Source of the DNA: Cellulophaga sp. BC115SP | GTDB lineage: Bacteria; Bacteroidota; Bacteroidia; Cytophagales; Spirosomataceae | Assembly: GCF_009905545.1 (NCBI RefSeq) | Contig: NZ_JAAALB010000006.1 | Location: forward strand, 62,001-126,000 | Length of the DNA: 64,000 nt | Reading direction: 5' to 3' | In this document: piece after piece, positions 13,558 to 31,170 of the stretch | How the letters are laid out: each line of letters begins with the position of its first letter | Position numbering within the stretch: position 1 is the stretch's first letter | Made by a program: the position numbers and the translations under genes | The notes under the pieces: generated by a model | Seen by the model: the letters and a program-made list of their open reading frames with translations, nothing else | The model's database searches: none | What the model was told of the DNA's origin: nothing

Positions 13558-13616
13558 AAATAAACGACTTAAATCCCTGACATTAAACAACGTTCTACCC
13601 CTTAAATTAAGATTAC

Positions 13617-14309: not shown

Positions 14310-14320
14310 CGTGATTTTAA

Positions 14321-14369
14321 TGTCGTTTAATGTCGGGGAGGATCAAAACCTCCCCGACATTAAACGACA
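14321..14369. repeat. REP-like palindrome 3 downstream of the RAYT
   Basis: Two perfect 21-bp arms (14321-14341 and 14349-14369) around a 7-base loop ATCAAAA. The core GTCGGGGAGG is shared with elements 1 and 2. It lies between the RAYT stop codon and hsdR. Confidence 0.9.
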
Positions 14370-14487
14370 AGCCAACGCACAGGCAATTTCTTTTACTATA
14401 CCCTTGCAAAAAAGGTATTTGAAAGTAATACAAGAACGAGTGGAAAAGATAGGAATAAACTAGAACACATAAAAGCATCTAAACACC

Positions 14488-17400
14488 ATGATATTTTCGT
14501 CGGAGGCACACTTTGAAGATAGCCTTATTACCCTATTAACACACAAAGGCTGGGAAAAAGAAATCATTAAATACCCTACGGAAGAAGACCTCCTTCAAAA
14601 CTGGGCTAAGATTCTGTTTGAAAACAATCGAGACCAAGACCGCCTCAATGACTCGCCTCTTACTGAAGGCGAAATGCAGCAGATTCTAGCCCAAATAAAC
14701 GCTCTTAAAACGTCCCTAAAGCTCAATGCCTTTATCAATGGAAAAACCGTGGTGATTACCCGTGACAATCCAGCAGATACGCTACATTTTGGGAAAGAAG
14801 TAAGTTTAAAAATATACGACCGTCGAGAGATAGCCGCAGGGCAAAGCCGTTATCAAATCGTGGCACAGCCAAAATTCAAAAGCAAATCCAAAATTCTACA
14901 AGACCGCCGAGGCGATATATTGTTGCTCATCAACGGAATGCCCTTGATACACCTCGAACTCAAAAAAAGTGGCGTACCCCTCAGTCAGGCATACAACCAA
15001 ATCGAAAAATACTCGACCGAAGGCATTTTTTCGGGCTTATTTTCGCTGATTCAGATTTTTGTAGCCATGACACCCGAAGAAACGGTGTATTTTGCCAATC
15101 CTGGCGTAGATGGCAAATTCAACAAAGATTACTATTTCCATTGGGCAGATTTCAACAACGAACCCATCAACCATTGGAAAGTTATAGCTTCTACCTTGCT
15201 TTCTATCCCGATGGCTCATCAACTCATTGGTTTTTATACAGTAGCCGATGCCACCGATGGCGTACTAAAAGTGATGCGGAGCTACCAGTATTTTGCAGCC
15301 AATGCCATCAGCGATAAAGTTGCCAAAACCAACTGGAAAGCAAAAAATATCTTGGGCGGTTATGTATGGCATACCACAGGATCGGGTAAAACCATGACCA
15401 GTTTCAAGTCGGCACAACTCATAGCCAACTCAAAAGATGCCGATAAAGTACTCTTTTTGATGGACAGAATTGAGCTTGGTACACAGTCGCTGTTGGAGTA
15501 CCGTGGATTTGCCGATGAAAACGAAGAAATACAAGCCACCGAAAACACCGCCGTGCTGATTACGAAGCTAAAAAGCAACAATCCTGCTGATACCCTGATT
15601 GTTAGCTCGATTCAGAAAATGAGTAATATCAAAAGCGAAAGCGAAGGATTACTCAACAGCCACGATATAGCCCTTATCAATGCCAAACGGCTTGTATTTA
15701 TCATCGACGAAGCACATCGTTCTACCTTTGGCGATATGCTTATTCTGATCAAAAACACCTTTCCGAACGCCTTATTTTTTGGATTTACGGGTACGCCAAT
15801 CCAACAAGAAAATCAAAAAAAGCGAAATACCACTTCGACCGTTTTTGGCGACGAGCTACATCGTTACAGCATCGCCGATGGCATCCGAGATAAAAACGTA
15901 TTGGGATTTGATCCTTACAAAGTACTTACTTACCGAGATAGAGATTTAAAAAGAGCTGTAGCTTTAGAAAAAGCCAGAGCAGCAAGTGAAGCGGAAGTAT
16001 TTGCCAATCCTAGCAAAACCGAAATATTCAATGAGTATATGAGGCTAAGAATGGCAGGACATTTGGGCGATAATGGTATTTGGGTAGAAGGCATAGAGGA
16101 TTATGTGCCTAAATCACAATACGAGCGAATAGAACACCAAGAAAAAGTAGTAGAAGATATAGTAGATAACTGGCTAACACTCAGCCAAGGTAATAAATTT
16201 CACGCCATTTTTGCCACCAGTAGTATCAACGAAGCCCTTGAATATTACCGACTGCTGAAACAGCACAAACCTACGTTGAAAGTGACAGTCTTGTTTGACC
16301 CAACTATCGACAACAACGGAGGAGCACAGTACAAGGAAGAAGGCTTAGTAGAAATCATTCAAGATTACAATCAACGTTATCAACAAGATTTTGCATTAGC
16401 CAATCATGCCAAGTTTAAGAAAGACATTGCGGCAAGACTTGCCCACAAAAAGCCCTATTTACGTATAGAACGCACACCCGAAAAACAAATCGACTTATTG
16501 ATAGTAGTTGACCAAATGCTCACAGGTTTTGATTCAAAGTGGATAAATACCTTATACTTAGACAAAGTATTGAAGTACGAAAATATCATTCAAGCCTTTT
16601 CTCGAACCAATCGACTCTTTGGACCAGATAAACCTTTTGGTACTATTCGTTATTATCGCTATCCGCACACGATGGAATATAACATCGAAGAAGCTATAAG
16701 AATCTATTCGGGCAACCGACCAATGGGTTTGTTTGTGGAGCAATTGCCACACAATTTAGAAAGGCTCAATGCTACTTTTGATGAAATCAGCCATTTATTT
16801 ATGTTGGCTGGTATTGAAAACTTTGAAAAGCTCCCAGAAGACAGAGCAGAACGTGGACGATTTGCCAAGCTTTTCAAATTATTAAATGACCATTTAGAAG
16901 CCGCCAAAATCCAAGGATTTAAGTGGAGTAAATCAGAATATAGTTTTGGTAAAGGAAAGTCAAAACATATCATCGTCATGAACTTCGATGAAAATACTTA
17001 TTTGATTCTGGCATTGCGTTACAAAGAGCTATTAAGTGGAGGAAATGGAGGTGGACTAGATGAACTACCTTTTGAGATTGAGGGCTATCTTACTCAAATA
17101 GACACAGGCATAATAGATGCCAATTACATGAACTCAAGGTTTGATAAATACCTTAAAACATTACAGGCAGATGACAGCGAACATTTACAGCAGACACTCG
17201 ACGAACTACACAAGTCTTTTGCCTCCCTTACCCAAGAAGAACAGAAGTTTGCCAATATTTTTATCCATGATGTTCAAAGTGGTAATGTTATCTTAGAAAG
17301 CAATAAGACCTTTCGAGAATACATTACAGAGTATCAGTCAAAGGCAAAAAATGCAGAAATTTATCAGCTTTCGCAAGTACTAGGTTTGGATGAATCCAAG

Positions 17401-17616
17401 CTTAAAAACATGATGATTTTAAATCTAAACTCATTAAATATCAACGAATACGGTCGCTTCGATGACCTAAAAAGCACTGTTGATAAAACAAAGGCAAAAG
17501 CATATTTTGAAAAATTAGAAGGACAAACACTACCGCCATTTAAAGTAAATATCAAAGTCCATAATTTACTTCAAAGCTTTATCCTAAACGGTGGTTTTGA
17601 AACAGAAAATGTTTGA
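14488..17616 (+). CDS. hsdR: type I restriction enzyme, nuclease/translocase subunit R
   Basis: 1042 residues, the usual HsdR length. It translocates DNA by ATP hydrolysis and cuts at a distance from unmethylated sites. The N-terminal PD-(D/E)xK nuclease has its acidic residue near 142 (GDILLLI) and LELKKSG near 155-160. The SF2 helicase core follows: Walker A TTGSGKT at about 296, DEAH at 407 (IIDEAHRSTFG), GFTGTPI near 430, and motif VI QAFSRTNR near 705. The C-terminal helical domain binds the methylase. The gene is intact and co-directional with hsdM and hsdS but separated from hsdS by the RAYT and its three palindromes. Confidence 0.93.
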   Translation: MIFSSEAHFEDSLITLLTHKGWEKEIIKYPTEEDLLQNWAKILFENNRDQDRLNDSPLTEGEMQQILAQINALKTSLKLNAFINGKTVVITRDNPADTLHFGKEVSLKIYDRREIAAGQSRYQIVAQPKFKSKSKILQDRRGDILLLINGMPLIHLELKKSGVPLSQAYNQIEKYSTEGIFSGLFSLIQIFVAMTPEETVYFANPGVDGKFNKDYYFHWADFNNEPINHWKVIASTLLSIPMAHQLIGFYTVADATDGVLKVMRSYQYFAANAISDKVAKTNWKAKNILGGYVWHTTGSGKTMTSFKSAQLIANSKDADKVLFLMDRIELGTQSLLEYRGFADENEEIQATENTAVLITKLKSNNPADTLIVSSIQKMSNIKSESEGLLNSHDIALINAKRLVFIIDEAHRSTFGDMLILIKNTFPNALFFGFTGTPIQQENQKKRNTTSTVFGDELHRYSIADGIRDKNVLGFDPYKVLTYRDRDLKRAVALEKARAASEAEVFANPSKTEIFNEYMRLRMAGHLGDNGIWVEGIEDYVPKSQYERIEHQEKVVEDIVDNWLTLSQGNKFHAIFATSSINEALEYYRLLKQHKPTLKVTVLFDPTIDNNGGAQYKEEGLVEIIQDYNQRYQQDFALANHAKFKKDIAARLAHKKPYLRIERTPEKQIDLLIVVDQMLTGFDSKWINTLYLDKVLKYENIIQAFSRTNRLFGPDKPFGTIRYYRYPHTMEYNIEEAIRIYSGNRPMGLFVEQLPHNLERLNATFDEISHLFMLAGIENFEKLPEDRAERGRFAKLFKLLNDHLEAAKIQGFKWSKSEYSFGKGKSKHIIVMNFDENTYLILALRYKELLSGGNGGGLDELPFEIEGYLTQIDTGIIDANYMNSRFDKYLKTLQADDSEHLQQTLDELHKSFASLTQEEQKFANIFIHDVQSGNVILESNKTFREYITEYQSKAKNAEIYQLSQVLGLDESKLKNMMILNLNSLNINEYGRFDDLKSTVDKTKAKAYFEKLEGQTLPPFKVNIKVHNLLQSFILNGGFETENV

Positions 17617-17719
17617 AAATAGACAGGATAAAAAGCTTGTTGAAAACCTTGAAATTATTGAACTAAAATTCACTATCAATCATTATATTTACAAATAAAT
17701 AAACTTATAGGTTGATTTC

Positions 17720-18268
17720 ATGAGAATTTCAGATATTTTTGTCATAAAAAAAAATGTTCTATACTCCTTAGCTTATGATAATCAGGTGCATGAGTTCAGG
17801 CGATTGTTTACATTATGGATAGAAGATTTAGCATTTTTAGATTCATTTTTTGATGATAATATTAAAGATTTAGAGAGTGGCTATTGGGGAGATATAACGA
17901 TAGAGGAAGCCATAGAACAAACTCGGTTTATGGCAATTAAACTAAGACAAAAATTTAAAAACTTATTGGCATCCAACCAACCATTACAAACACTATTTCA
18001 ACCATTAGACAACAACCAGTATCAAGAAAAAGCATTATCCAAGGAAAAATCAAAAGAAGGTTGGCTTAGAATTTATGCTATTCGCATCAGTACAAACACC
18101 TATGTAATTACAGGTGGTGCTATCAAACTTACGTTTAAGATGCATGAAGCAGAACATCTCAAAATTGAGCTTCAAAAACTAACAATTGCAAAATCATACT
18201 TGATAGATGAAGGGCTTACAGATGAATCGGATTTCGGTTACTTTGAATTTATGTCAGACATACCATGA
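17720..18268 (+). CDS. putative toxin of a three-gene toxin-antitoxin-chaperone cassette
   Basis: 182 residues, no confident family match. The C-terminal ~70 residues (EGWLRIYAIRISTNTYVITG, then GAIKLTFKMHEAEHLKIELQ) read like the RelE/HigB-type 'own residues on a beta-sheet core plus C-terminal helix' pattern that I associate with Bacteroidota proteins encoded just upstream of an Xre regulator. The N-terminal ~100 residues are helical and unassigned. The stop overlaps the next gene (an Xre-type regulator) by 4 bp, and that gene overlaps a SecB-like gene by 1 bp. Toxin-first order fits HigBA. The toxin role is inferred from context and is not shown by a catalytic motif. Confidence 0.55.
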   Translation: MRISDIFVIKKNVLYSLAYDNQVHEFRRLFTLWIEDLAFLDSFFDDNIKDLESGYWGDITIEEAIEQTRFMAIKLRQKFKNLLASNQPLQTLFQPLDNNQYQEKALSKEKSKEGWLRIYAIRISTNTYVITGGAIKLTFKMHEAEHLKIELQKLTIAKSYLIDEGLTDESDFGYFEFMSDIP

Positions 18269-18765
18269 AAAATCAAAAACTTATTGAAAACCTCAACAAG
18301 GTTGCCAAAGAAGATACTTCTTGGCAAGATGACGTTGATTTTTACGAGAATAATAAAAAATGGCTTGATTATTCTGCACAGATAGCAATTTCAATTCTGA
18401 GCAAATTAAGAGCAAACAGGAGAGAAGGAAAGTTTCCAAGCACTCAAAAAGAGTTGGCTGAATTAATGAATGTAAGTCCTCAACAAATCAATAAATATGT
18501 ACGAGGAACTGAAAATTTAACCATAGAAACCATCATTCGCATATCAAAAGCCATCGGATATGAATTGGTTAACTTTGACGTAAACAATCAAGAATCTCCA
18601 ACACTCACTTATAATAATGCTTTTTCGACTACTTTATCACACAGTCAATTAATTATTCCAAGTAACAACGGAGGATTTATCAATCAGGCTGCTTTCACCG
18701 TTGAAGGCAATACACAATCAGAAACCAAAGCAGTCGGAAAGCTTCAATACGCAATGGCATCATAA
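18265..18765 (+). CDS. Xre-family HTH protein, putative antitoxin with C-terminal tail
   Basis: 166 residues. A helix-turn-helix of the Xre/Cro type is clear at about residues 65-95 (STQKELAELMNVSPQQINKY, then VRGTENLTIETI), preceded by a helical region. The last ~55 residues are Asn/Thr/Ser-rich and look unstructured. In toxin-antitoxin-chaperone systems the HigA antitoxin carries such a C-terminal chaperone-addiction extension that the SecB-like chaperone binds. It probably represses its own operon and neutralises the protein encoded at 17720. It overlaps its upstream neighbour by 4 bp and its downstream neighbour by 1 bp, so the three are surely co-translated. Confidence 0.75.
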   Translation: MKNQKLIENLNKVAKEDTSWQDDVDFYENNKKWLDYSAQIAISILSKLRANRREGKFPSTQKELAELMNVSPQQINKYVRGTENLTIETIIRISKAIGYELVNFDVNNQESPTLTYNNAFSTTLSHSQLIIPSNNGGFINQAAFTVEGNTQSETKAVGKLQYAMAS

Positions 18766-19199
18766 TGAAACAGACAGAAAAGAACATAGGTTTTAGTATT
18801 ATTCAAATTAGTACAGAACAGTTTGCTTTATTACCAGAAGCTTATCAGGTATCAAAACCTGCTCAAATTCAACATGAATTATCATTTGGAATAGACAAAG
18901 ATAATAAGCGAATTTATGTAAAAAAAACGGCTCGATTTCATCATGTAGGCAACAATTACCCTTTTATTATCATAGCAGTATCATGTCAGTTTCAGGTCAA
19001 TCCAGACGACTGGTCAATGCTTGAAGAAGCCCACAAAATTGTGTTACCTCAGAATTTTGGCATTCATTTAGGGATGTTGGTAGTTGGCACTTTAAGGGGC
19101 GTGCTATATACTAAAACTGAAAATACTATTTTTAACCAATTCATTTTACCAACTATTGACGTAACGGCATTAGTGCCAAATGATGTGACATTTGAATGA
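18765..19199 (+). CDS. SecB-like protein, putative chaperone of the cassette
   Basis: 144 residues, close to SecB length (about 150). The second half has the features of a SecB-like fold: a strand-rich region (HVGNNYPFIIIAVSCQFQV), then a helix ending in LVVGTLRGVLYTKTE, and a terminal FILPTIDVTAL segment analogous to the LAPVNF-type end of SecB. I read it as the SecB-like chaperone of a toxin-antitoxin-chaperone module, by analogy with Rv1957 of Mycobacterium tuberculosis. The similarity was judged by eye only and is modest. It starts on the last base of the antitoxin stop codon. Export chaperoning of other proteins is the main alternative. Confidence 0.55.
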   Translation: MKQTEKNIGFSIIQISTEQFALLPEAYQVSKPAQIQHELSFGIDKDNKRIYVKKTARFHHVGNNYPFIIIAVSCQFQVNPDDWSMLEEAHKIVLPQNFGIHLGMLVVGTLRGVLYTKTENTIFNQFILPTIDVTALVPNDVTFE

Positions 19200-19201
19200 T
19201 A

Positions 19202-19277
19202 TGTATAGGAAACAGCCTTTTTTATACACATCTACGTTATCATGTATAGAAAATTGCCTTTTTCTATACATGATAAC
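19202..19277. repeat. two tandem hairpins with TGTATAG arms
   Basis: The gap between the cassette and mcrB holds an imperfect hairpin near 19203-19229 and a perfect one (GTTATCATGTATAGAAA at 19236-19252 with its complement at 19261-19277). Both share a GTATAG...GCCTTTTT...TATAC layout. They may terminate the upstream operon or serve as operators. Confidence 0.6.
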
Positions 19278-19344
19278 TTAACTTTTATATACACTTATCA
19301 ATAAAGTCAAACCAACGTAACACTCCTAATGCTCATATTTTAGC

Positions 19345-21138
19345 ATGACCAAATTACAACAACTACACGAAGACATCTATTCTTTTCTATTAGACTGCCA
19401 CAAAAAAAATAATGATTTTAGGTTTATTCCCCGAATTGAGCAAAGTGATAAACTAAAAAATAGATATTGGTTGACTGGAGGAGAAACAGAAATACTAATT
19501 GGACTTTCATCGACTAATGATTTACGCACTAAAAATTTATGTCTACGTTTTATTCACAATAAAGAAAAAATTTCTAAATGTCAATTGTTAGTAATGTTTA
19601 GAAGTGAAGAAAATGATGAAAATTTAAAAATGTATTATGAATTAATTGCTGAATTAGAAAAAACTCAACTATTAAGTAACAGCAGAGAAGAGCAAATTCA
19701 AAAATATAGATATTTTACCCTCCCAACAAATTCAAATTGGAAGGATAGTATAGTATTTTATATAGAAAAGATAAAACCTGTAATAAATTCGTTTGTGAGT
19801 AAATATCAACTCAATAATACATTTGAAGTTAACGAAGAACTTTTTAAGAAATACATCGGTGTTATAGAAAATCAAAGACATTCTATTTCTATTTTACCAA
19901 ACAAATCTATCGACATGGCAATGCCCAATTCCTACCCGCTCAACCAAATCCTCTACGGACCTCCTGGGACTGGTAAAACATATCAGACGGTGGCTTTGGC
20001 TTATAAAATTGTCCATCAGCTGCCATTGAATCAGGACATTGACTACACAGCGGCTAGAGCTTGGTACAAACAAGAATTAGCCAAAAATCACGACCGTCAG
20101 GTGGAGTTTATTACCTTTCATCAAAATTATAGTTATGAGGATTTTATAGCAGGTATTAAGCCAGCTCTCAATGACGATACCCTTGGCTTTAGAGAACATA
20201 AAGGGATTTTCTTTGAGGTATGCCAAAGGGCTTTGAAGAACCTACAACAAGCTACTCAGGCAAATTATCAAGAAATACCTAGCTTTCAAGAGGTTTTTGA
20301 TACGTTTATTGTAGACCTTATTCAAAATGATAGACCTGTTGAGGTAGGTTTAAAGCGTGGCGGTAGTTTCTCTATTACTAAAGTTAACGCCAAAAATATA
20401 GAGTTTAAAAAACAAAGCGGAACTTCTGAACACACATTAAGTATTCAGACTCTTGAAGAAATTTATTCTAATCAAAGAGAGTTTACTTCAGGACTTGCCA
20501 CATATTATAACCAGATAGTTGATAAACTACGAGAAATTGCCTCAGGATTGACAAGGAGTATTCCTGCTCAACCGCTCAAAAACTACGTCTTAATCATCGA
20601 CGAAATCAACCGTGCCAATATTTCAAGGGTTTTTGGAGAGCTTATTACGTTATTGGAAGAAGATAAACGTTGGGGGAATGATTTTGAAACAGAGGTTTTG
20701 CTTCCTGACGGCTTTACTAAATTTACTGTACCCAAAAATCTGTATATAATCGGTACGATGAATACTGCCGATAAATCTATTGCCTTACTGGATATTGCCC
20801 TCCGTCGACGCTTTGAGTTTATTCCTTTGTACCCAGATGTTTCAATGGTTAAGGATGACTATCAAGTGTTTTTCAATACATTAAATCAAATTATTAAAGA
20901 CAAAAAAGGTATTGATTTTTGTATTGGACATGCCTACTTTATGCCTCATCAAGGTCGTGATTTTGATTTTGTTAAAGTTATGAATCAAAAGGTTATTCCA
21001 TTGCTTACAGAGTATTTTTATAATGCTCGTACAACACAAAACGATGTTAAGCAATTGCTTGAGGAGGCCTTTAGAAGATCTGGTTTATCTTTCCAAATTG
21101 AAGAAAACATGTTCCAAATCATGATTGTAGGTTCATAA
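19345..21138 (+). CDS. mcrB: McrB-like AAA+ GTPase of a McrBC-type restriction system
   Basis: 597 residues. McrB is the DNA-recognising, GTP-hydrolysing ring motor that drives McrC to cut modified DNA. The N-terminal ~190 residues are a variable DNA/modification-reading domain that I cannot assign. The AAA+ module follows: Walker A GPPGTGKT at 205, Walker B VLIIDEINRAN around 419, then the McrB-specific MNTADKS at 472 and the LRRRFEF arginine-finger region. An insertion of about 80 residues lies between Walker A and B, as in other members of this family. The N-terminal half is more A+T-rich than the AAA+ half, consistent with domain exchange. mcrC follows after 28 bp. Confidence 0.9.
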   Translation: MTKLQQLHEDIYSFLLDCHKKNNDFRFIPRIEQSDKLKNRYWLTGGETEILIGLSSTNDLRTKNLCLRFIHNKEKISKCQLLVMFRSEENDENLKMYYELIAELEKTQLLSNSREEQIQKYRYFTLPTNSNWKDSIVFYIEKIKPVINSFVSKYQLNNTFEVNEELFKKYIGVIENQRHSISILPNKSIDMAMPNSYPLNQILYGPPGTGKTYQTVALAYKIVHQLPLNQDIDYTAARAWYKQELAKNHDRQVEFITFHQNYSYEDFIAGIKPALNDDTLGFREHKGIFFEVCQRALKNLQQATQANYQEIPSFQEVFDTFIVDLIQNDRPVEVGLKRGGSFSITKVNAKNIEFKKQSGTSEHTLSIQTLEEIYSNQREFTSGLATYYNQIVDKLREIASGLTRSIPAQPLKNYVLIIDEINRANISRVFGELITLLEEDKRWGNDFETEVLLPDGFTKFTVPKNLYIIGTMNTADKSIALLDIALRRRFEFIPLYPDVSMVKDDYQVFFNTLNQIIKDKKGIDFCIGHAYFMPHQGRDFDFVKVMNQKVIPLLTEYFYNARTTQNDVKQLLEEAFRRSGLSFQIEENMFQIMIVGS

Positions 21139-21166
21139 ATTCGCAGTACAATTTAAGGCTACTTTT

Positions 21167-22456
21167 ATGAAAATAGATACATTTGAGTTTGGCAATACCT
21201 TTACCATTCCTGATACACACGTCAGGGGGTTGAAGAACTATTTGAGTGAGGTTTGGAAAAATCGCCTAAAATACCAATCCTTTGAAAATGTAGAAGATGA
21301 TACCAGCGGCGCAAAAGAGTATGAAAGGATTTTTCATTTTGATGGTAATCAATTGCGTGCTAAAAACTATATAGGCTTTATCCAATATCAAGATCTTCGA
21401 ATCAATATTTACCCTAAAATTGTTGCTCAGCAACCTCACAAAGAGGAGATAATTCCGAAGGTTTTATATTGGTTATCGTATAGTAATCACCTACAATTTC
21501 CTTTTTCAGAAATTTCGTTAGAACAACAGCCATTTGATGATTGGTTGGAAGCTTATATCTATTTGTTTGCTCAATATACCTCTGAGGTTTTGAGCACTCA
21601 CCCCTACCATGCCTATCAAGAGGTAGTTGAGGAAACAAGTTTTCTTCGTGGAAGCCTAGCCATGACAGAATATATTCAGCAAAACCTTTCAACTGGTAGA
21701 CACCAATATTTTCAGAGCAGACATGAGCCTTTTCTCTATGACAATTTGTTTAATCGTATTGTCAAATATGTAGCAAGATTGTTGCTTTCTTTCACTCAAA
21801 ATATCACTAATCAGACGACATTACAAGAGTTAGTATTTATCCTAGATGGTGTTTCGGAGGCTGAATATCAAGCGCTGGATTGTGACAAAGTGGTGCTAAA
21901 TCCCCTCTATCAAGACTTAAAGCTAGTATTATCGATGGCTAAAATGTTTTTGGAATCTAGCGCCATTCATCATTCACAGCATCAACACACAATGTCCCTT
22001 TTGCTTCCAATGGAGGTAATTTATGAGGATTTTTTGAGTGGATTTATTAAAAAGAATTTTCAATCTAGGAACCCAGTTACTCAGAAAATGGGATTTCTAG
22101 CCCAAAATGAACGCATGCTACCTGTATTTGCAACAAAACAAGACCTAGTGTTATACTCGCCCAACGTCATTGTAGACACCAAGTACAAAATAAGACAAAA
22201 ACAAGATGCAAAGAGAGGTGTGTCTCAAAATGATTTGTACCAAATGGTCGCGTATTCGATTCGTAGCAATATCGAATACATAGTCTTGCTCTACCCCAAA
22301 GCATGGAATCAGGATAGCTCAATCGATACCTTTACCATTGAAGATACATTAGCATGTCCCCCTCAAAAAATTCAAATCAAAGCCGTGGATGTGGATATTT
22401 GTGTGGATGATGCTCAAATTAATGCTCAACTAGCCAATATTTTGAGTATAGACTAA
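21167..22456 (+). CDS. mcrC: McrC-like nuclease subunit of a McrBC-type restriction system
   Basis: 429 residues. McrC binds the McrB ring and supplies the PD-(D/E)xK nuclease. The N-terminal beta-rich part (about 1-120, with NYIGFIQYQDLRINIYPKI) is the McrB-interacting domain. The central helical part contains SFLRGSLAMTEY, a family signature. The nuclease site is seen as LVLYSPNVIVDTKYK, with D337 and K339 forming the DxK pair and an upstream acidic residue. The gene follows mcrB by 28 bp on the same strand and is intact. With mcrB it forms a type IV, modification-dependent restriction system. Confidence 0.9.
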   Translation: MKIDTFEFGNTFTIPDTHVRGLKNYLSEVWKNRLKYQSFENVEDDTSGAKEYERIFHFDGNQLRAKNYIGFIQYQDLRINIYPKIVAQQPHKEEIIPKVLYWLSYSNHLQFPFSEISLEQQPFDDWLEAYIYLFAQYTSEVLSTHPYHAYQEVVEETSFLRGSLAMTEYIQQNLSTGRHQYFQSRHEPFLYDNLFNRIVKYVARLLLSFTQNITNQTTLQELVFILDGVSEAEYQALDCDKVVLNPLYQDLKLVLSMAKMFLESSAIHHSQHQHTMSLLLPMEVIYEDFLSGFIKKNFQSRNPVTQKMGFLAQNERMLPVFATKQDLVLYSPNVIVDTKYKIRQKQDAKRGVSQNDLYQMVAYSIRSNIEYIVLLYPKAWNQDSSIDTFTIEDTLACPPQKIQIKAVDVDICVDDAQINAQLANILSID

Positions 22457-23323: not shown

Positions 23324-23926
23324 ATGCCTTATTTGATACTCGATTTAGAAATGTCAGGCCAAGAGGCTGGCTATCATGATATCATTCAGATTGGCGCTCT
23401 TTTAGCAGATAATGATTGGAAGGTACTTTCCAAATTTGAGACGCTCGTATATCCAGATAACGAAGAAACATTTTCGAGTTATTCCGAAAAAGTCCACGGA
23501 ATTTCATTAGAAGATTTAGAAGATGCCCCTTCCTCGTACGATGCCTTGGAGGATTTTGAGACTTGGATTCGTAAGACACTTCGCCGCGATAGCCATGAGC
23601 GTCTGCATGATGTAGTAATTTGTGGACAAAGCGTCATCAACGATATTAATTTTCTCAAAGCTACCTACGACGACCTCAATATTGATTGGCCATTTTCTTT
23701 CAAATTAGTTGACTTGATGAGTATTTCGGTATTGATGTTTCAGGTATTTGAAAACAACAAAATGGCAACACCCAAGTCGTATAGTCTCAAATCTGTAGCC
23801 GATTACTTTGGCATATACCGCAAAGACACTACACACAATGCCTTAGAGGATGCCGATATTACTTATCAGTGTTTTAAAAAGTATTTTGAGTTGGCAAAAC
23901 AGGCAAAACTACCCACTAATTCTTAA
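23324..23926 (+). CDS. DEDDh-type 3'-5' exonuclease
   Basis: 200 residues. The RNase T/DnaQ exonuclease fold is evident: Exo I motif with D7 and E9 (LILDLEMSG), the Exo II aspartate probably in CGQSVINDINFLKA, and Exo III HNALEDADIT near residue 172, where the His makes it DEDDh. These enzymes remove nucleotides 3'-5' from DNA or RNA using two metal ions. The length is near that of oligoribonuclease or RNase T, but the sequence is not clearly either. It stands alone between the membrane nuclease and a palindromic element and may be a defence accessory or a housekeeping exonuclease. Confidence 0.85.
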   Translation: MPYLILDLEMSGQEAGYHDIIQIGALLADNDWKVLSKFETLVYPDNEETFSSYSEKVHGISLEDLEDAPSSYDALEDFETWIRKTLRRDSHERLHDVVICGQSVINDINFLKATYDDLNIDWPFSFKLVDLMSISVLMFQVFENNKMATPKSYSLKSVADYFGIYRKDTTHNALEDADITYQCFKKYFELAKQAKLPTNS

Positions 23927-23948
23927 AGGCAATATCATTGTTTAAAGT

Positions 23949-24219
23949 GTATTAATGCAAAATAAAATTGCATTAATACGCTTTAAGCGGTAAGCTGTAA
24001 GCATTAGGCAAAAATCTATTCATGCTTTTTTTAAAACTCTTTTATACTTTAAACTTACGGAATATGGCTTAATACCTATTACGGTTTACCCGCATTAAAC
24101 TCTAGGCTTTATGCGGTAGGCAAAAAGTTAAATAGTATTTCTCATGAAGTAATAGAATCTTTTTTGCCTAATGCTTACTGCATAAAGCATATTAATGCAA
24201 CTTTATTTTGCATTAATAC
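23949..24219. mobile_element. 271-bp MITE-like element with ~60-bp terminal inverted repeats
   Basis: The left end reads GTATTAATGCAAAATAAA and continues ATTGCATTAATACGCTTTAA; the right end is its near-perfect reverse complement. Homology of the ends continues inward for about 60 bp (GTAAGCATTAGGCAAAAA). There is no coding capacity. Each end itself contains a small palindrome (ATTAATGCAA with TTGCATTAAT), so the ends can cruciform. It fills most of the 396-bp gap before the MoxR-vWA operon. No transposase of matching type is in the window. Confidence 0.75.
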
Positions 24220-24322
24220 TTACTCGCTCCAGTATTATCTCCTGACTTTGAATCTTTTATCTTCCTTAGTCAAAACTTCTTAGATTTTTGTATATTGCTT
24301 TTCTATAACTGAACACCTGACC

Positions 24323-24937
24323 ATGAACTCAACCTATTTTGTGGATTTGCTTCAGACCATTCGGGAAGAAGAAAGCGCCATTCTTTATAATAATCTCCCT
24401 GAAATTTCGGATGCCGAAAAGCAACAAGCTATTATATATCTTAGAAAAACATACCATGAGGAATGTATAGGTTATCCACGTGGTTATCCTCCTTTTGATG
24501 AAAAAGCTGCCTTGTGGGGTGCACAAATACTCTATATTTCTTGTCAATTAGTCTTATTCAGAAAACAAAACCTTGAGGATATACAGGTTTTATTAAACGA
24601 CTTCTCTAGTCCTAAAACACCAAGTACGATACTTTCAGCAGACTTAATGCTTCGTTTTCTTCCGAGTGTAATCGAAATACTCCAGTCTTTAACGCCAGAA
24701 GATCCTTTGATAGAACTATTAACCCAATTGCTGGAAAAATGGCATTATTCGGGAATAGCTTTTCCACTCAATAGTGAAAATCTTTCTTTCGAAACGGAAC
24801 TTCAAGATCCTTGTCTTCGACAATTATACCTTGATAGAGTTGTCGAAAATTCAAGACTAGACCTTATAGAAAACCCTATATTGAACCCTCTCTTGAGAGC
24901 TAACTATGGAATTCATTACCAATACTTTACCCGCTAA
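24323..24937 (+). CDS. first gene of the MoxR-vWA operon, unknown helical protein
   Basis: 204 residues, family not recognised. It is predicted to be all-helical and acidic, with no signal peptide or membrane segment. Features are an Asp/Glu-rich N-terminus, a YPRGYPPFDEKAALWGAQIL stretch at about residues 48-67, and a C-terminal FYTR-like end. It opens a five-gene, tightly overlapping operon whose second gene is a MoxR-type AAA+ ATPase. In the MoxR-vWA-beta-propeller 'ternary' systems described computationally, small accessory proteins of this size sit next to the ATPase and are named bpX domains; it may be one of them, but I cannot assign a number. It ends 16 bp before the likely start of the ATPase gene. 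Confidence 0.7.
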   Translation: MNSTYFVDLLQTIREEESAILYNNLPEISDAEKQQAIIYLRKTYHEECIGYPRGYPPFDEKAALWGAQILYISCQLVLFRKQNLEDIQVLLNDFSSPKTPSTILSADLMLRFLPSVIEILQSLTPEDPLIELLTQLLEKWHYSGIAFPLNSENLSFETELQDPCLRQLYLDRVVENSRLDLIENPILNPLLRANYGIHYQYFTR

Positions 24938-26084
24938 ACAACTTCATTTACACATGAATGCTATTGCCCAATTAAACCAAGTTTTAGAATACCTCAAAAA
25001 CACCTTTGTAGGAAAAGATGAAATTATAGATTTACTAGGAATTTGCCTTGTAGCTCGTGAAAATGCCTTTTTACTTGGTCCTCCAGGCACGGCCAAAAGT
25101 GCTATTGTTCGCGCCCTATCACAATGTATTGTCGACGGAAATAATTTTGAATACCTCCTCACACGTTTTACTGAACCTAGTGAAATTTTTGGTCCATTTG
25201 ATATTAGAAAGCTTAAGGAAGGCGAACTCCTCACCAACACAGAAGGCATGATGCCTGAAGCATCGTTGGTGTTTCTGGATGAAATCTTCAACGCTAATAG
25301 TGCTATTCTTAACAGCCTCCTCATGGCCTTGAATGAGCGCATCTTTAGAAGAGGTCGAGAAACTCGATTGCTTCCTGCGTTGATGTTTGTAGGTGCTAGT
25401 AACCAACTGCCACAAGAAGAAACGCTCAATGCATTGCTAGATAGATTTTTGATCAGGGTCAACTGCAACTATGTAGCTCCCGACCAATTAGAACAGGTAT
25501 TGATTCAAGGTTGGAAACAACAGAAAAATCCTATTCAAGATATTCCTAGTATTACCCCAAATGCGATCCAGGACTTACAAGCCATGAGTAAAAACATAGA
25601 TTTGAGCCCTATTCGTGCCCAATACGTCGATTTAATTCATAGTTTACGCAATACAGGATTTAGTGTATCAGATAGGCGAGCAGTTAAAATCCAAAATTTG
25701 ATTGCAGCATCTGCCCTACTGGCTGGTAGACAAGAGGTTATTACTTCCGACCTTTGGGTGATGCGCAATATCTGGGATACCGAAGAGCAAATTGAAACGC
25801 TGCAAGCCATGATTGAGGGAGTCATAGGAAAAGAACCTATTCCTGATAGCCACCCTCAAGCTTTTCAAAATGCCTTACCTGATGCGGAGGTACTTATGCA
25901 AGAAATTATTTCATTAACAGAGCGCTGGAAACAATCAGCAGAGAATTGGGAAGAGAAAAATCTCATTAAAGATCAATTACGTTTTTTACAAAATCGTAAT
26001 AACTGGTTGCAATCAGAGGAAAAACGTCGATATATCCAACAAAACATAGATGCATTATGGCAAAAAATCTTGGCACAGAGTTAG
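24906..26084 (+). CDS. MoxR-family AAA+ ATPase of a ternary conflict system
   Basis: 392 residues from the first ATG, or 376 from M17 (24954), which avoids a 32-bp overlap and is the likelier start. MoxR/RavA ATPases are hexameric chaperone-like motors that usually act with a vWA-domain partner. Walker A is GPPGTAKS at 58-65, with Ser in place of Thr as in other MoxR proteins. Walker B is VFLDEIF with D125, sensor 1 is ASNQLP near 165, and the arginine-containing LNALLDRFLIRV follows. A C-terminal helical lid and a Trp/Gln-rich tail (EQIETLQAMIEG to the end) complete it. It overlaps the next gene by 28 bp. Co-translation with the vWA-like gene supports a joint machine. Confidence 0.88.
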   Translation: MEFITNTLPAKQLHLHMNAIAQLNQVLEYLKNTFVGKDEIIDLLGICLVARENAFLLGPPGTAKSAIVRALSQCIVDGNNFEYLLTRFTEPSEIFGPFDIRKLKEGELLTNTEGMMPEASLVFLDEIFNANSAILNSLLMALNERIFRRGRETRLLPALMFVGASNQLPQEETLNALLDRFLIRVNCNYVAPDQLEQVLIQGWKQQKNPIQDIPSITPNAIQDLQAMSKNIDLSPIRAQYVDLIHSLRNTGFSVSDRRAVKIQNLIAASALLAGRQEVITSDLWVMRNIWDTEEQIETLQAMIEGVIGKEPIPDSHPQAFQNALPDAEVLMQEIISLTERWKQSAENWEEKNLIKDQLRFLQNRNNWLQSEEKRRYIQQNIDALWQKILAQS

Positions 26085-26803
26085 GGGCTTTTTACCTATG
26101 CACTTCAATGAAAGACGAGCGTTTTTGGGGTAACATTCGTCACTGGGAAAATCTGAGTATTGCTTATGAAGGCGATAATATTTGGCTAAGAGGATTGACA
26201 TTAATACAAACTCAATCTGTGGAAGTGATGAGTTTGCTACACAAGCAACTTTTTGTCCAAAAGGAAGAAAAGCTCTTTAAAGTAGGAAGCTTATTACCTG
26301 AAAGAAGCATCCCAGATTTAGCGTGGATACCTCTCAAAAAAGCTGTTGGTATAGAGTTACCTAGTTTTAATTTCAACTTTTTTTATTTATCCGAAAAAGT
26401 AAGATTTGATTTGGTTCAAGCAACACAGCTACGGGAGTCTGTAGCTATGCTAGTGGATTTATCGGTACTGAAAGACTATGTAGAAACCGCTCCAGCTTTA
26501 CGACTATCGGTTTTAAAGTGGGTTATACTGGGAAGTCAACACGCTTTTGTATTAGGGACTCCCCTATTACCAATACAAGGGCTTAGTTTTTGGCAAAAAG
26601 GAAGATGTTTTTTCCCTGATGGTCTACAACCAGAGTTCCCCATTTTGTTACCTACACTAGAACAAAAACTCGGTAGCAATCCACTAGACTATCTGGTATT
26701 TAACTCCAATGGTCAAATACTTACAGTTTCAGCCTATCAGTTCAAGCAACTTTCGAGAAGTTCTTTTAGACTAAGCTATGAGAAAACCCTTGCATCACAC
26801 TAA
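26057..26803 (+). CDS. ternary-system accessory protein, unknown
   Basis: 248 residues, or 231 if translation starts at M18 (26108), which would remove the overlap with the ATPase gene. No recognised family. The composition is beta-rich with many aromatics (DERFWGNIRHWENLSIAYEG, DNIWLRGLTL, QGLSFWQKGRCFFPDGLQPE) and lacks a signal peptide. The last block resembles the 'variable-strand plus FPDG' style of the bpX domains of MoxR-vWA-beta-propeller systems. Its place directly between the ATPase and the vWA-like gene suggests it bridges them or binds a target. The assignment to that system is contextual. Confidence 0.65.
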   Translation: MAKNLGTELGAFYLCTSMKDERFWGNIRHWENLSIAYEGDNIWLRGLTLIQTQSVEVMSLLHKQLFVQKEEKLFKVGSLLPERSIPDLAWIPLKKAVGIELPSFNFNFFYLSEKVRFDLVQATQLRESVAMLVDLSVLKDYVETAPALRLSVLKWVILGSQHAFVLGTPLLPIQGLSFWQKGRCFFPDGLQPEFPILLPTLEQKLGSNPLDYLVFNSNGQILTVSAYQFKQLSRSSFRLSYEKTLASH

Positions 26804-26823
26804 CTATTGAACCACATTGCCTA

Positions 26824-29169
26824 TTGAATGATATGAATAACCTAGAGTATTATTTGCAATATCAAGACTATTTTTGGGAATGGGATGTTGACTCCACTAT
26901 CGGGCAACTTTGTATTTCTATGCCTCATGGTGATACGATTATCTATGAAGAACAACTCATTGAAACCCTCAGAGTACTATCAAAAACAGGCATTCCTCGC
27001 TTGGGTACACTATTGTTGTTATTCATCGCAACAAGCGCAAATGGTCAGCAAAACATTGACAAGCTCTATTATCAGTTTTTAAAACTTGACAATGGACTGC
27101 ACGGTAACAATATTGTCGGTGATGCTATTAAGTTCTTACGTCTTGTCTCCAAACTACCCGCAAATCTAAAAAGAGGTAGTCAACGGATATTGGTTCTTCA
27201 GCAACTCTTGGAAGGTAGCCACAACAATTATGCAATCAAGAAATCTATTAGCATATTTAATAGCTTGGGGTACTTTTGTAAAAGCCAAAACCATTTTCCA
27301 GAAAAACAACCTTTAAGCAGTAGCATCTTTGAAAAAGATGTTCGCCCCATTGCACTTCTACTAAAAAAATATCCTAATGCTGAAAGTATTATAGCCAAAC
27401 TAAGCAATATCCAAGAGATTAACCTTGAGGATTTTGAGCAAGAAATCGAACAGTCAAATGATAACCATACAGTAGATTGGCATGAAGAGCTATTATCGAA
27501 TCCTAAAACTTTTCATAGCGCCGCACTAATCAAAAGCTTATGGGCAGGGTTACATATACCTTTTCAAGGAGATATTCCTAGTCAACAACCCTTGGGTGGG
27601 GTTACCGATTTGAGCAATAAAGGCAACCTTGAACGTTTACTTTTATCAGAACTTGCCCATGAGGATATAGTGCTTTTATCGAGACTAGCGCATAACGAAG
27701 CGCTTTATTTACAACGTGAACTTCCTCCACAAAACAACCCTAAAAAGCGAGTATTTTTAATAGATATTTCGATTAAAAATTGGGGAACACCCAAAACACT
27801 TGCTTTCTCTATTTGGCTGTCATTGCTCAAGCATCCAAAAGCCAAAATGTCGGCAGAATCTTTTGTCATTGGCAATGATTACACCGCCATTTCAGCCGAG
27901 AATATCGAGTCTATTATCCAAGGACTTGACCTCCTCGATTATTCGCTTCATGCTGGCAATGGTATAAAAAAGTTTTTCGATACTCAATCATTCAAGAAGT
28001 CTCAACAAGAAATCTTCTATATTTCGAACAAAGCATCGACCGCATATCCAGCTATGCAAAAAGAATTGTCGTTGGTTGCACCGATGATTAACTACTGGAT
28101 TTATGTAACTGCTGAAGGGAAAATAGAGATTCATTATCAGCAAAACAAAGGTCTTAAGCCAGTACAAGAGCTCTTGTTACCCTTGAAATCACTTTGGGAA
28201 AAAACACCACCCATTAGTAAGCAGACCACACCTCAAAAGAGAGAGCGAAACAGCAATGCCTATCCAATATTGATACCTCCTCAGCCTCAATTGGCACGTT
28301 TCACCTTCAAGGCAAAAGATGGCAATACCTATTTTATTGTTGCCAATGCCCTTTGTAAAGCGCTAGACGAAAACAAAGGTTGGGAAGTTTTACTTGATCG
28401 TAAGGAAATGGCAGAATCCTATGCCCTAGGAATCAATATGTCAAATGAGGTGATACTGCTGGCTTTTGTACTTGCACAGCATTCACATAAGAAATTAAGT
28501 ATTTACAATATCAATACAGGATATTGGGGCTCAACAGGACTTGCCAGTTTTAAATGGAAAAACCTCTTTTTTGATGGAAATCATTTCTACATGATACAGA
28601 AAAACATGAAGTACACTTATGTGTTAGAGAACGGAGAATCACCTCAAACTGGCGCTATAAAAATCGAGACATCTACAGTAGAAACAAATGATTTTGAGAC
28701 AACCAAAAAAGTAAATATTCAAGCTAAAAAATCAGAGACAAAGTCCAGTGTTAACTTTCTTAAAAACATTACTGAGGTAGGTATTAGTAAGGAAAATAAA
28801 ATTTTATTAAACAGACATAGCTTGTATTTTGATGATAATAATAGAGTTACTATCCAATCAAGCCTATCGACAACCATGCATCTAACTGCCCAAGCGATAA
28901 AGAATGGCATTTTTGAGTTTCCGAATGGCGCTAGAATCCACACCAATACATTTGGATTATGTATTCTGGAAAATACAGCTCAGAATCAGATTATTTACTT
29001 TCCTACAGTGATGGAAGAACCTATTGCCATGAGTACCAAAGAGGATTGTTGTGGCAATACTTCCTTTTTACCCAACCTGCCACTCAAGAAACTAGAGGTA
29101 AAGGATTTTAGGAAAAAATATATAGATACATTTATTCAAGATATCATTAACCATGGAACTACGACTTAA
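26824..29169 (+). CDS. large vWA-like protein with C-terminal beta-rich (bpX/propeller-like) region
   Basis: 781 residues with three visible parts. Residues 1-270 are helical and unassigned. Residues about 300-420 look like a von Willebrand A-type fold: RVFLIDISIKNWGTPKTLAF starts with D314, an alternating strand-helix pattern follows, and a downstream FYISN strand is present. The MIDAS signature is degenerate: DxSxK instead of DxSxS. Residues about 480-760 are strand-rich with repeated Trp/Tyr/Gly motifs (GNTYFIVANALCKAL, KLSIYNINTGYWGSTG, NLFFDGNHFYMIQ), consistent with a beta-propeller-like domain. In MoxR systems the vWA partner docks on the ATPase ring. It overlaps the last gene of the operon by 17 bp. 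Confidence 0.75.
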   Translation: MNDMNNLEYYLQYQDYFWEWDVDSTIGQLCISMPHGDTIIYEEQLIETLRVLSKTGIPRLGTLLLLFIATSANGQQNIDKLYYQFLKLDNGLHGNNIVGDAIKFLRLVSKLPANLKRGSQRILVLQQLLEGSHNNYAIKKSISIFNSLGYFCKSQNHFPEKQPLSSSIFEKDVRPIALLLKKYPNAESIIAKLSNIQEINLEDFEQEIEQSNDNHTVDWHEELLSNPKTFHSAALIKSLWAGLHIPFQGDIPSQQPLGGVTDLSNKGNLERLLLSELAHEDIVLLSRLAHNEALYLQRELPPQNNPKKRVFLIDISIKNWGTPKTLAFSIWLSLLKHPKAKMSAESFVIGNDYTAISAENIESIIQGLDLLDYSLHAGNGIKKFFDTQSFKKSQQEIFYISNKASTAYPAMQKELSLVAPMINYWIYVTAEGKIEIHYQQNKGLKPVQELLLPLKSLWEKTPPISKQTTPQKRERNSNAYPILIPPQPQLARFTFKAKDGNTYFIVANALCKALDENKGWEVLLDRKEMAESYALGINMSNEVILLAFVLAQHSHKKLSIYNINTGYWGSTGLASFKWKNLFFDGNHFYMIQKNMKYTYVLENGESPQTGAIKIETSTVETNDFETTKKVNIQAKKSETKSSVNFLKNITEVGISKENKILLNRHSLYFDDNNRVTIQSSLSTTMHLTAQAIKNGIFEFPNGARIHTNTFGLCILENTAQNQIIYFPTVMEEPIAMSTKEDCCGNTSFLPNLPLKKLEVKDFRKKYIDTFIQDIINHGTTT

Positions 29170-30859
29170 GCCTCACCAACAAAATCTGTATCCCAAGGCA
29201 GGTTTGTTAATTGCTGGAAGTGCTATTAAATCTTGGCTTTTTGAGCTCCAAGCCTTAGGATTAAGTCTTGAAAACATCACCTGTTTTCCCATTCCTGATG
29301 CTATACCCAATAGTCTTTGGGGATGTTTGGTGATTATTCCCGAACAGCATTTTCCAATAGATATTCGTCAGCATCAAATTATCTATCGGGCATTTAACAA
29401 AGTATATATCCCAGAAAAGTCAACAGTATTCCCTTCACTCACAGAAGAGGATGCCTGCTTTTTATTTTCTCGTATGTCTGTTTTGATACATCCTTACTTA
29501 GGATTTATCGAACTTTCAGTACCTATCAATTGGATAGAAATAGTACAAACTCCTGATTTGTGGGAGACTGAACCAATAACTCCTGCCAATAGCCTGACTT
29601 TACCTAGTAGAATTAAAACATTATTGCTAAACCCCTCAGAAAGTCCAGACGAAATTATTTCACGATTAGAAACACAACCAACACCAGAAAAATCGCTGTT
29701 AGACAAACCTCTGAACATTTTTGAAAAAGCATTATTACTGTTCTACAAAATCATTATCTCTATTGCGTCGAATATGTTGCTAAGTTTTAAGGCTACCTCA
29801 GCTAACGATAACGCAAAACAGCTTTTGCGCAAAACCAAAGAGGATTCTTTGTTGTCGAAAATGCTAGACCACTTTAACTCATTAGAAAATCGTAAACAAA
29901 AATATCTTGATAAACTGTTTGATTTATTAGCCCAAAATCCCTTGGAAGCGCTCAAATATGCCATTCCTATCGACGATGGCACCCATAGAGGTTCTGAGAA
30001 TAATGGCTCATTAGGATTTTCGAAATATCGTGATTCACTTTCATTATTTGGCAATAACACACATGCGCATGGTGGAGGAAGTTTAAATATAAACGACAGT
30101 AGTATCGAACGATTACGAAGACAATATCGTGAAACAGCAGAACAGCTCATCCGTGAAGAAAAGTACACAGAAGCAGCCTTTGTTTACCTGAAATTATTGA
30201 AAGAATATTATTTAGCGGCTCAAACATTGGAGAAGGGCGAAAAATATCAAGAAGCAGCTTCTATCTATATTAAATACCTCAAAAACTATCATCAAGCCGC
30301 TATTTGCTACGAAAAAGCTAACCTTATATATAAAGCGATAGAATACTACATAAAAACAGAGCAATATGAAAAAGTAGGAGATTTATATACTAAACTCGAG
30401 AAGCATGATGAAGCGATATTGTATTATCAAAAAGTGGCAGAGAATTACCATATCGCAGGTCAATTGGTAAAAGCATCTTTGGTTTACAAAAATAAGATGC
30501 ACATGTTCAATAGAGCTCAAGCCATTCTGTGGGAAGGTTGGGAAAAAAATCAAGACGCGTTTAATTGTCTTGGTTTATATTTCAGTAATATACCTGATGA
30601 TACTGTATGTTGGCAGAAACTTCAGCAAGTATCCGCTTCATTAACCAACAAACAGTATCATTCCTTTTTAGATTTACTTAAAAATGTCTTTAAAAACCGT
30701 TTGGAGCTTCAACCCAACATCAAAGAGTTAGCCTATGAAATTATTTCAACGCAACTTAAAAATGACTCAAGCATAAGCACCTACCTTTCTTTTTTTGTAC
30801 CTAATGACCCACTTTTGATAAAAGATACTATCAGATTCAGATTAAATTACCGATTTTAA
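29153..30859 (+). CDS. TPR/SEL-like helical-repeat protein, last gene of the ternary operon
   Basis: 568 residues. Residues 1-145 are a beta-rich domain of unknown type (RLKPHQQNLYPKAGLLIAGS), followed by a helical linker with a short hydrophobic patch near 200. From about 325 to 450 there are at least five degenerate ~18-20-residue helical repeats of the form YxEAAxxYxK (TEAAFVYLKLLKEYYLAAQT, EAASIYIKYLKNYHQAAICY), which should build a TPR-like solenoid for protein binding. The final ~110 residues are helical. As the last gene of the five-gene operon it may be the substrate-recognition or effector-scaffolding part. It ends about 160 bp before the promoter of the second tRNA-Asp. Confidence 0.7.
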   Translation: MELRLKPHQQNLYPKAGLLIAGSAIKSWLFELQALGLSLENITCFPIPDAIPNSLWGCLVIIPEQHFPIDIRQHQIIYRAFNKVYIPEKSTVFPSLTEEDACFLFSRMSVLIHPYLGFIELSVPINWIEIVQTPDLWETEPITPANSLTLPSRIKTLLLNPSESPDEIISRLETQPTPEKSLLDKPLNIFEKALLLFYKIIISIASNMLLSFKATSANDNAKQLLRKTKEDSLLSKMLDHFNSLENRKQKYLDKLFDLLAQNPLEALKYAIPIDDGTHRGSENNGSLGFSKYRDSLSLFGNNTHAHGGGSLNINDSSIERLRRQYRETAEQLIREEKYTEAAFVYLKLLKEYYLAAQTLEKGEKYQEAASIYIKYLKNYHQAAICYEKANLIYKAIEYYIKTEQYEKVGDLYTKLEKHDEAILYYQKVAENYHIAGQLVKASLVYKNKMHMFNRAQAILWEGWEKNQDAFNCLGLYFSNIPDDTVCWQKLQQVSASLTNKQYHSFLDLLKNVFKNRLELQPNIKELAYEIISTQLKNDSSISTYLSFFVPNDPLLIKDTIRFRLNYRF

Positions 30860-31020
30860 AAGTATAAATTCTGTCTAAAAAGGTGCATTTTAGGCCTATT
30901 TAGCACCACTTTAATTTTTTTTATAAAAAATTTCAAATTTTTTCATTTTCATTTTATTCAGATAATGAGATAGTTATGACAACCATTACAAAAAACTTTT
31001 CAGAAAGTACTTGAAGTGAG
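30860..31020. other. A+T-rich gap between the ternary operon and tRNA-Asp copy 2
   Basis: About 160 bp with long A and T runs, including TTTAATTTTTTTTATAAAAAA. No gene, attachment-site core or integrase remnant is visible. Confidence 0.5.
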
Positions 31021-31063: not shown

Positions 31064-31137
31064 GGTTTGGTAGTTCAGTTGGTTAGAATACATGCCTGTC
31101 ACGCATGGGGTCGCGGGTTCGAGTCCCGTCCAGACCG
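31064..31137 (+). tRNA. tRNA-Asp (GTC), copy 2
   Basis: 74 nt with the same sequence as the gene at 9390-9463: the same GTC anticodon, acceptor and T arm. The promoter -7 box, the terminator stem and the two flanks outside them allow comparison; the leader between promoter and tRNA differs in length (12 versus 46 bp), so this looks like a gene duplicate rather than a bare attachment site. Confidence 0.97.
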
Positions 31138-31170
31138 CAAAAGCTCAGAAATTTTTTCTGAGCTTTTTTA
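31138..31170 (+). terminator. terminator of tRNA-Asp copy 2
   Basis: AAAGCTCAGAA and TTCTGAGCTTT arms plus a T-run, the same stem as at 9465-9496. Confidence 0.85.

Follow-up and report, generated by a model that had tools for sequence, protein, structure and literature searches.

What is the run of five genes that lies inside a restriction island of a bacterial genome, and what does it do for its host? We addressed this question for the plus-strand operon at positions 24323–30859 of a 64,000-nucleotide stretch of contig NZ_JAAALB010000006.1 (Cellulophaga sp. BC115SP), the whole of which we term the window. Dedicated Pfam families matched all five proteins in the order bpX4, bpMoxR, bpX2, bpX0 to bpX1 and bpX3, with E-values that exclude a chance match, and the operon is almost certainly a complete five-gene MoxR–vWA–β-propeller ternary system, as an earlier note on this DNA had proposed. 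Its five consecutive open reading frames (ORFs) were confirmed as listed:

24323..24937, plus strand: bpX4 protein, 204 residues (Pfam PF19920, E 1.3e-66, residues 5–202)
24906..26084, plus strand: bpMoxR AAA+ ATPase (Pfam PF20030, E 1.2e-100)
26057..26803, plus strand: bpX2 protein, 248 residues, mixed α/β (Pfam PF19918, E 6e-67)
26824..29169, plus strand: the large protein, with bpX0, a predicted vWA-like domain, a predicted propeller-like region and bpX1 (Pfam PF19915, E 3.4e-31 at residues 36–192; PF19917, E 2.1e-13 at residues 697–774)
29153..30859, plus strand: protein of 568 residues with bpX3, a hydrophobic segment and a TPR-like part (Pfam PF19919, E 9.1e-39, residues 2–172)

The earlier note could name no family for three of the five proteins, a statement that the dedicated families overturn. 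The genome contains a single bpX2 match; for bpMoxR, one match scores high at 336.9 bits, the second-best reaching 53.3 bits. The assignment of the second protein as a MoxR AAA+ ATPase was borne out by its conserved motifs: Walker A reads GPPGTAKS in the window and is kept across 86 aligned rows save one substitution in one row, and the Walker B Asp-Glu pair as well as the catalytic Asn and Arg positions are present in all 86. Because 11 aligned relatives begin near residue 17 of the listed ORF, at the ATG at 24954 and thus beyond the bpX4 stop at 24937, the true MoxR start is probably 24954 and the overlap of the first two genes is probably a start-codon artefact. Likewise, based on 10 aligned relatives, the large protein probably starts at its residue 4 (26833) and not at the TTG at 26824.

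A vWA-like core in the large protein, suspected in the earlier note, is tentatively supported by its predicted model (mean predicted local distance difference test score, pLDDT, 82.6), in which strands and helices alternate at residues 308–428 in a vWA-like order, and by the invariant Asp314 (82/82 aligned rows), although all vWA profiles stayed below their cut-offs, ivWA scoring best with E 0.24. Ser/Thr316 is equally invariant (82/82), and position 318 is Lys or Arg in 79 of the 82 rows. Position 404, just past the strand at 395–402, is acidic in 60 of these rows and Ala in the window, where the metal site of the domain appears reduced. C-terminal to the vWA-like domain, the model places the β-rich region that had been noticed before; its best Foldseek match is a propeller lectin (E 6.6e-6), and the comparison with solved structures supports a propeller-like fold with partial superpositions. 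Both bpX0 and bpX1 were matched in all 55 large proteins scanned, the window's included, and 32 of the 55 additionally carry a ribosomal L7/L12 C-terminal domain (Pfam), an insertion that the window's protein lacks. A count with a custom L12 profile (63/81) was discarded as contaminated by bpX1 flanks, and the Pfam count is used instead.

For the last protein, the earlier reading as a TPR-like solenoid drew weak profile support at residues 335–456 (SNAP 3.4e-4, TPR_1 0.013, both under cut-off), and no propeller family was matched by profile search. A hydrophobic stretch at residues 194–212 (mean hydropathy 1.85) represents a borderline membrane segment, whereas a transmembrane-like segment (mean hydropathy > 2.0) occurs in 43 of 73 bpX3 proteins. 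Averaged over all pairs of 79 rows, identity amounted to 38% in the N-terminal 180 residues of the bpX3 proteins, to 37% in the large protein and to 43% in both bpX2 and bpX4. The AlphaFold2 model of bpX2 (mean pLDDT 88.7) gave no clear match in a comparison with PDB structures. In none of the five proteins did we recognise the domain of a catalytic effector such as a nuclease or protease, the NCBIfam search yielded no equivalog over cut-off, and PADLOC-DB 2.0.0 gave nothing below E 0.002, the weak matches being RtcR/PspF (0.0024), PtuB (0.0082) and DrmD (0.038).

This type of system is already known, corresponding to subsystem 4 of Kaur et al. 2020 (eLife, PMC7159879), where the subtype is labelled enigmatic with its effectors wanting, a membrane-proximal role is inferred, and the third component is described with a variable N-terminal region, a membrane segment, TPR and a propeller. 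The same paper reports a modest association with multicellularity (118 organisms, 44 multicellular, P 0.0094; its Table 1). The window shares with these systems the full set of signature families, the P-loop of the form GXXXTAKS, a propeller-like region that follows the predicted vWA-like domain, and a third component with a putative TPR part together with two extra conserved proteins (bpX4 and bpX2), but its third component has no recognised β-propeller and its membrane segment is only borderline. The VMAP, iSTAND and FtsH ternary systems (PMC7159879) have the MoxR plus vWA core in common with the window operon, whose five proteins in contrast show no VMAP, inactive STAND or FtsH matches and no effector domains. 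NorQ–NorD and RavA–ViaA also pair a MoxR AAA+ ATPase with a vWA partner, and the mechanical principle is likely alike, yet those are two proteins with known clients whereas the window encodes five. To our knowledge, neither pair contains bpX families. The RavA model (PRK13531, NF010054) scored 188.9 bits against the window's MoxR, far under its cut-off of 681. In agreement with the earlier note, we found no settled molecular function for the subtype in a literature search that was not exhaustive, nor any experiment on it in the available parts of the literature including PMC7159879, PMC10910872, PMC8195603, PMC11090510, PMC7824862, PMC9976466 and PMC13036017.

To place the operon among its relatives, we examined 91 loci, comprising 11 from further genomes and 80 named ones that were the best 80 of 367 candidates; dropping five duplicates left 86 distinct loci. 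The order bpX4–MoxR–bpX2–large protein–bpX3/TPR was complete and co-linear in 79 of the 86, which fits a multi-subunit machine. Six of the seven incomplete loci reach the end of the available DNA, and the seventh (L086) ends after the large-protein gene, its upstream genes having been missed by ORF picking. An extra ORF interrupts the operon in four of the 86 loci (L036, L046, L115, L117); at L036 it encodes a DUF4919 protein, and at L046 it occupies 3784–5493, separating bpX2 from the large-protein gene, and encodes a predicted AAA-ATPase that carries a PD-(D/E)XK nuclease domain. Several Chryseobacterium loci (L034, L036, L037 and others) encode the bpX3 and TPR parts as two genes, and in many of these split-gene loci the bpX3 protein has a transmembrane-like segment at its C-terminal end.

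Scored by bpX2, the system is present in 2/5 genomes of the window's genus, 3/39 relatives (the query genome counted), 10/395 genomes of a phylum sample and 10/150 Flavobacterium species, as compared to 108/118 Chryseobacterium species, one of which is represented by a genome of 75% completeness where bpX2 is broken. The operon is thus near-core in Chryseobacterium and accessory elsewhere. In the MoxR phylogeny, the window groups with Arcicella (94/23, not starred), and its branch is long.

The surroundings of the operon in the window comprise the following features:

9390..9464, plus strand: tRNA-Asp(GTC), left island edge (ARAGORN; in a direct repeat of 91 nt, 99% identical)
9653..22456, plus strand: HsdM, HsdS, HsdR, McrB-like ATPase and McrC (Pfam), restriction context outside the system
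23324..23926, plus strand: RNase_T (DEDDh) exonuclease (Pfam PF00929, E 6.9e-23), adjoining the operon and not part of it
23902..30913, no strand: operon-bearing segment of 7.0 kb missing at the same place in two same-genus genomes (blastn)
31064..31138, plus strand: tRNA-Asp(GTC), right island edge, ~0.2 kb downstream of the operon (ARAGORN; direct repeat)

The two copies of the direct repeat (9387–9477 and 31061–31151) each span a tRNA-Asp gene, and the duplicated tRNA genes flank a variable restriction island of 21.7 kb with the operon inside. Within it HsdM and HsdS are followed by a small gene whose transposase match stays under threshold, HsdR, a helix-turn-helix gene, the ATPase for which an AAA_5 match and the McrC neighbour suggest the label McrB-like, McrC, a small protein that weakly matches a restriction enzyme, the RNase_T exonuclease and then the operon. 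By blastn, one same-genus genome (G001, L157) matches the window on the left to 23901 and on the right from 30914, with 54 bp between, and another (G003, L159) to 23900 and from 30916, with 56 bp between. The operon plus ~0.4 kb upstream is therefore a clean 7.0-kb presence/absence unit, arisen by insertion or deletion, and the window copy is optional cargo of a tRNA-Asp-bounded defence island. Island contents differ between the window and both of these genomes, of which G003 has two tRNA-Asp copies that flank the McrBC part; the 20 kb examined in G001 contained one. In a further genome of the genus (G004), the operon lies away from this junction: ~22 kb separate it from the gene homologous to window gene 35958, its relative orientation is opposite, and the exonuclease homologue is on a separate contig. 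The exonuclease was considered as an operon partner and rejected, since it is retained at the empty sites of G001 and G003 and its homologues occur in 17/39 relatives (query included) compared with 3/39 for bpX2. The small protein at 22544–23206, whose restriction-enzyme match is weak (PADLOC E 0.0076), is retained together with the exonuclease in G001 and G003.

The earlier note took the company of restriction systems as support for a defence role, and locally the type I, McrB-like, McrC and exonuclease genes make this plausible from one island location. We could not extend this argument to other loci. We compared the two nearest ORFs per side, 137 ORFs in total, at 37 other loci with PADLOC; these loci derive from the 43 outside Flavobacterium and the Chryseobacterium group, with L072, a Flavobacterium, added and the short L039, L075, L078, L082 and L086 as well as the near-duplicates L093 and L103 left out. 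The 67 PADLOC families matched had none in more than two members, and all 25 listed were reverse-transcriptase models. For the control, 20 stretches picked by hand in nine other Bacteroidota genomes supplied 154 ORFs, of which six above 1000 residues were dropped; the remaining 148 matched 13 families, again none in more than two members. There was thus no clear defence enrichment near the 37 loci in a test that is coarse, uses a control that is not genome-matched and could let a weak enrichment escape. Among 163 Pfam families in the same flanks, the 25 most frequent look ordinary apart from two reverse transcriptases. A restriction-island location is not general for these operons. Phage records, searched with MoxR only, gave 13 matches at 28–37% identity, including bacterial contigs that had been classed as phage. 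A search of plasmids with bpX2 and MoxR returned one carrier, a non-mobilizable Hymenobacter plasmid (L128) with the sole plasmid copy found, whose 37-kb stretch is also annotated with a site-specific integrase, an HNH-domain protein, a RES-domain protein and an antitoxin; its bpX3-TPR gene is far longer, encoding 959 residues.

A different company emerged from clustering 921 flanking ORFs of the 86 loci, with neighbours scored within ~10 kb. The recurrent neighbours were an RNase_T exonuclease (26 loci), an ATP-grasp-like protein (18; a label read from the sequence, with no Pfam match over cut-off), Band_7 (15), an RNase H-like protein (14), an RLIG1-like RNA ligase (13), a metallophosphoesterase (11), cREC (10) and endonuclease V (7). 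Defining an RNA-repair-type neighbourhood by at least one RLIG1-like or Rnl2-like ligase, cREC, exonuclease or metallophosphoesterase, we found it at 22/26 Flavobacterium loci, mostly upstream on the operon's strand, and at 13/17 Chryseobacterium-group loci; in Chryseobacterium the genes for the RNase H-like protein, cREC, the metallophosphoesterase and the exonuclease are found downstream, also on the operon's strand. At L040 and L079, endonuclease V is present as well. Longer stretches add an Rnl2-type ligase with SWIM/DUF6493 genes in one genome (G247) and HAD, PRTase, TerD and TelA genes in another (G050). SWIM zinc-finger, WGR-like (by sequence reading) or DUF6493 proteins recur near the operon at L081, L090, L091, L119 and others, and we found no literature linking SWIM, WGR, MoxR and vWA.

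Among the 150 Flavobacterium genomes, the RLIG1-like ligase occurs in 10 (one a 74-residue partial match); eight have both ligase and bpX2, on one contig and 5.3–12.4 kb apart, two have bpX2 only and two the ligase only, one of these being partial. For the 118 Chryseobacterium genomes, 84 contain a ligase match, 83 of them close Rnl2 homologues, some partial; such a homologue is present in 82 of the 108 bpX2-bearing genomes and in one of the 10 without bpX2, and in 78 of the 82 it shares the contig with bpX2 at a distance of 9.0–14.8 kb. Three genomes of the phylum sample have that ligase at ≥60% identity, two of them with bpX2 within 11 kb; these two belong to two families and have the ligase on opposite sides of the operon. 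The words 'exonuclease' and 'RNA ligase' are absent from the main text of PMC7159879, its source data lying outside that check, and the main text seems not to discuss the RNA-repair neighbourhood of these operons.

On the question of function we favour, with evenly divided confidence, an ATP-driven machine for stress or conflict that remodels or protects host components rather than a cutter of invading DNA. By analogy with NorQ–NorD and from the domain order, the MoxR protein would form an ATP-driven hexamer, and the large protein would act as a co-chaperone whose vWA-like domain docks on the MoxR ring while its bpX0 and propeller-like parts hold the client. The bpX2 and bpX4 proteins may serve as obligate adaptors and the bpX3-TPR protein as a scaffold, often membrane-anchored; ATP hydrolysis would pull on the co-chaperone so that the client complex is reshaped or assembled. 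A β-hairpin that the model shows at residues 433–451 of the large protein is a candidate for a NorD-like finger that would enter the MoxR pore. Damaged RNA or translation components are a first guess for the client, owing to the RNA-repair-type company in most of the Flavobacterium and Chryseobacterium loci examined. RNA damage is the most specific clue to function, yet we deem it an unlikely specific trigger, having lowered our estimate slightly because RNA-repair-type neighbours (ligase, cREC, exonuclease, metallophosphoesterase) were found at 0/43 loci outside the two groups within the available DNA. A bolder version, which we likewise consider improbable, casts the system as a motor so far missing from the defence of bacteria against RNA damage: an AAA+ machine tethered to the membrane, akin in principle to the ribosome-remodelling ATPase midasin, would dismantle ribosomes or ribonucleoprotein particles with cleaved tRNA or rRNA and let the ligases, phosphoesterases and exonucleases that neighbour it in two lineages repair or clear the RNA, and the L7/L12 C-terminal domain in the co-chaperone of relatives would reach translation factors.

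Besides the empty count at the 43 loci, several observations weigh against this line of thought. The window locus has no neighbours of the RNA-repair cluster, its exonuclease being incidental and outside that cluster. In the MoxR tree, the neighbourhood needs five changes (35 loci positive, 34 negative, 17 uncalled), and the positives are confined to three clades, two of Flavobacterium and the Chryseobacterium group; Fisher tests of the ligase/bpX2 association are inflated by shared ancestry within clades. Metabolic-looking genes recur as well, namely a purine-nucleoside-phosphorylase-like neighbour at 15 Chryseobacterium-group loci and an acyl-CoA-synthetase-like one at 12 Flavobacterium loci, both labels being sequence readings. 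Furthermore, one Flavobacterium genome (G513; L129, 3082–10044) has the RNA-repair set, 92–99% identical to its closest relatives and with similar outer flanks, at a natural empty site lacking the operon, and in another (G481; L130, 9854–10661) the operon and most of the set are lost, leaving a shortened ligase frame and one small gene. Both cases argue against a tight dependence of set and operon on each other. Three results bring the question of trigger and client nearer to a test for a subtype known from computation, to which the literature we found assigns neither: the near-core version in Chryseobacterium, the G513 locus, which can be compared with a close relative having the operon (ACN2, L049), and the recurrent neighbourhood in two groups, which supplies concrete candidate partners.

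The published prediction offers an alternative to such a remodelling machine, namely a stand-alone anti-phage system (Kaur et al.) in which the propeller/TPR parts would sense infection, the threshold would be set by MoxR–vWA, and the cell would be killed or arrested through the bpX3 region, serving as a membrane-proximal effector. Its patchy presence among relatives and across the phylum and the clean presence/absence inside a restriction island agree with this idea, as do the variable N-terminal region and membrane segment described for the third component (PMC7159879). We nevertheless regard it as possible but doubtful, since the N-terminal 180 residues of bpX3 show no marked acceleration in evolution over the other proteins (the middle segment, which may be the variable one, lying outside that measurement), the window's own hydrophobic segment is borderline, no PADLOC model fits the five proteins, and the coarse flank test showed no clear defence enrichment. 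The near-core status in Chryseobacterium speaks against it too: conservation as core metabolism outside defence neighbourhoods, which the earlier note had named as evidence against its own view, was found in part, although RNA-processing and stress genes are among the neighbours there besides metabolic ones. That near-core status would instead suit a chaperone that helps to assemble an envelope, respiratory or metabolic complex of the host, as for RavA–ViaA or NorQ–NorD, with the defence neighbours accidental at an insertion hotspot. The MoxR plus vWA logic is that of NorQ–NorD (PMC13036017, PMC9976466), no effector is recognised, membrane segments are frequent among the bpX3 proteins, and the metabolic-looking neighbours recur within single genera. 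Each of the two commonest of these is limited to one of the two groups, however, and patchiness elsewhere would be unusual for a maturation factor since its client must be equally patchy. NorD moreover needs its metal-ion-dependent adhesion site (MIDAS) for its client, whereas the vWA metal site in the window appears reduced; altogether we judge this explanation rather unlikely. Selfish or neutral cargo at tRNA-Asp hotspots is highly improbable: the clean absence of the 7.0-kb segment from G001 and G003 at a tRNA-Asp-bounded site would fit it, but the plus strand of this segment has the five bp genes as its ORFs, without any recognised recombinase, and the long-term conservation of gene order and of bpX2 in Chryseobacterium species disfavours it. 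Nearly all species of one genus carry the machine, and in the window it is optional cargo within a restriction island, so that neither 'defence system' nor 'housekeeping' fits all copies.

Two further observations concern the window outside the operon. Hairpin repeats at 13479–14376 lie beside the small gene with the weak transposase match (13617); an ARAGORN 'tRNA-Leu' at 13479–13565 overlaps one such repeat and is probably false. Beyond the right tRNA-Asp gene, the minus strand encodes at 32295–34937 a large protein that had no Pfam match at E 0.01, contains aspartate-rich repeats and adjoins a LytTR regulator (31447).

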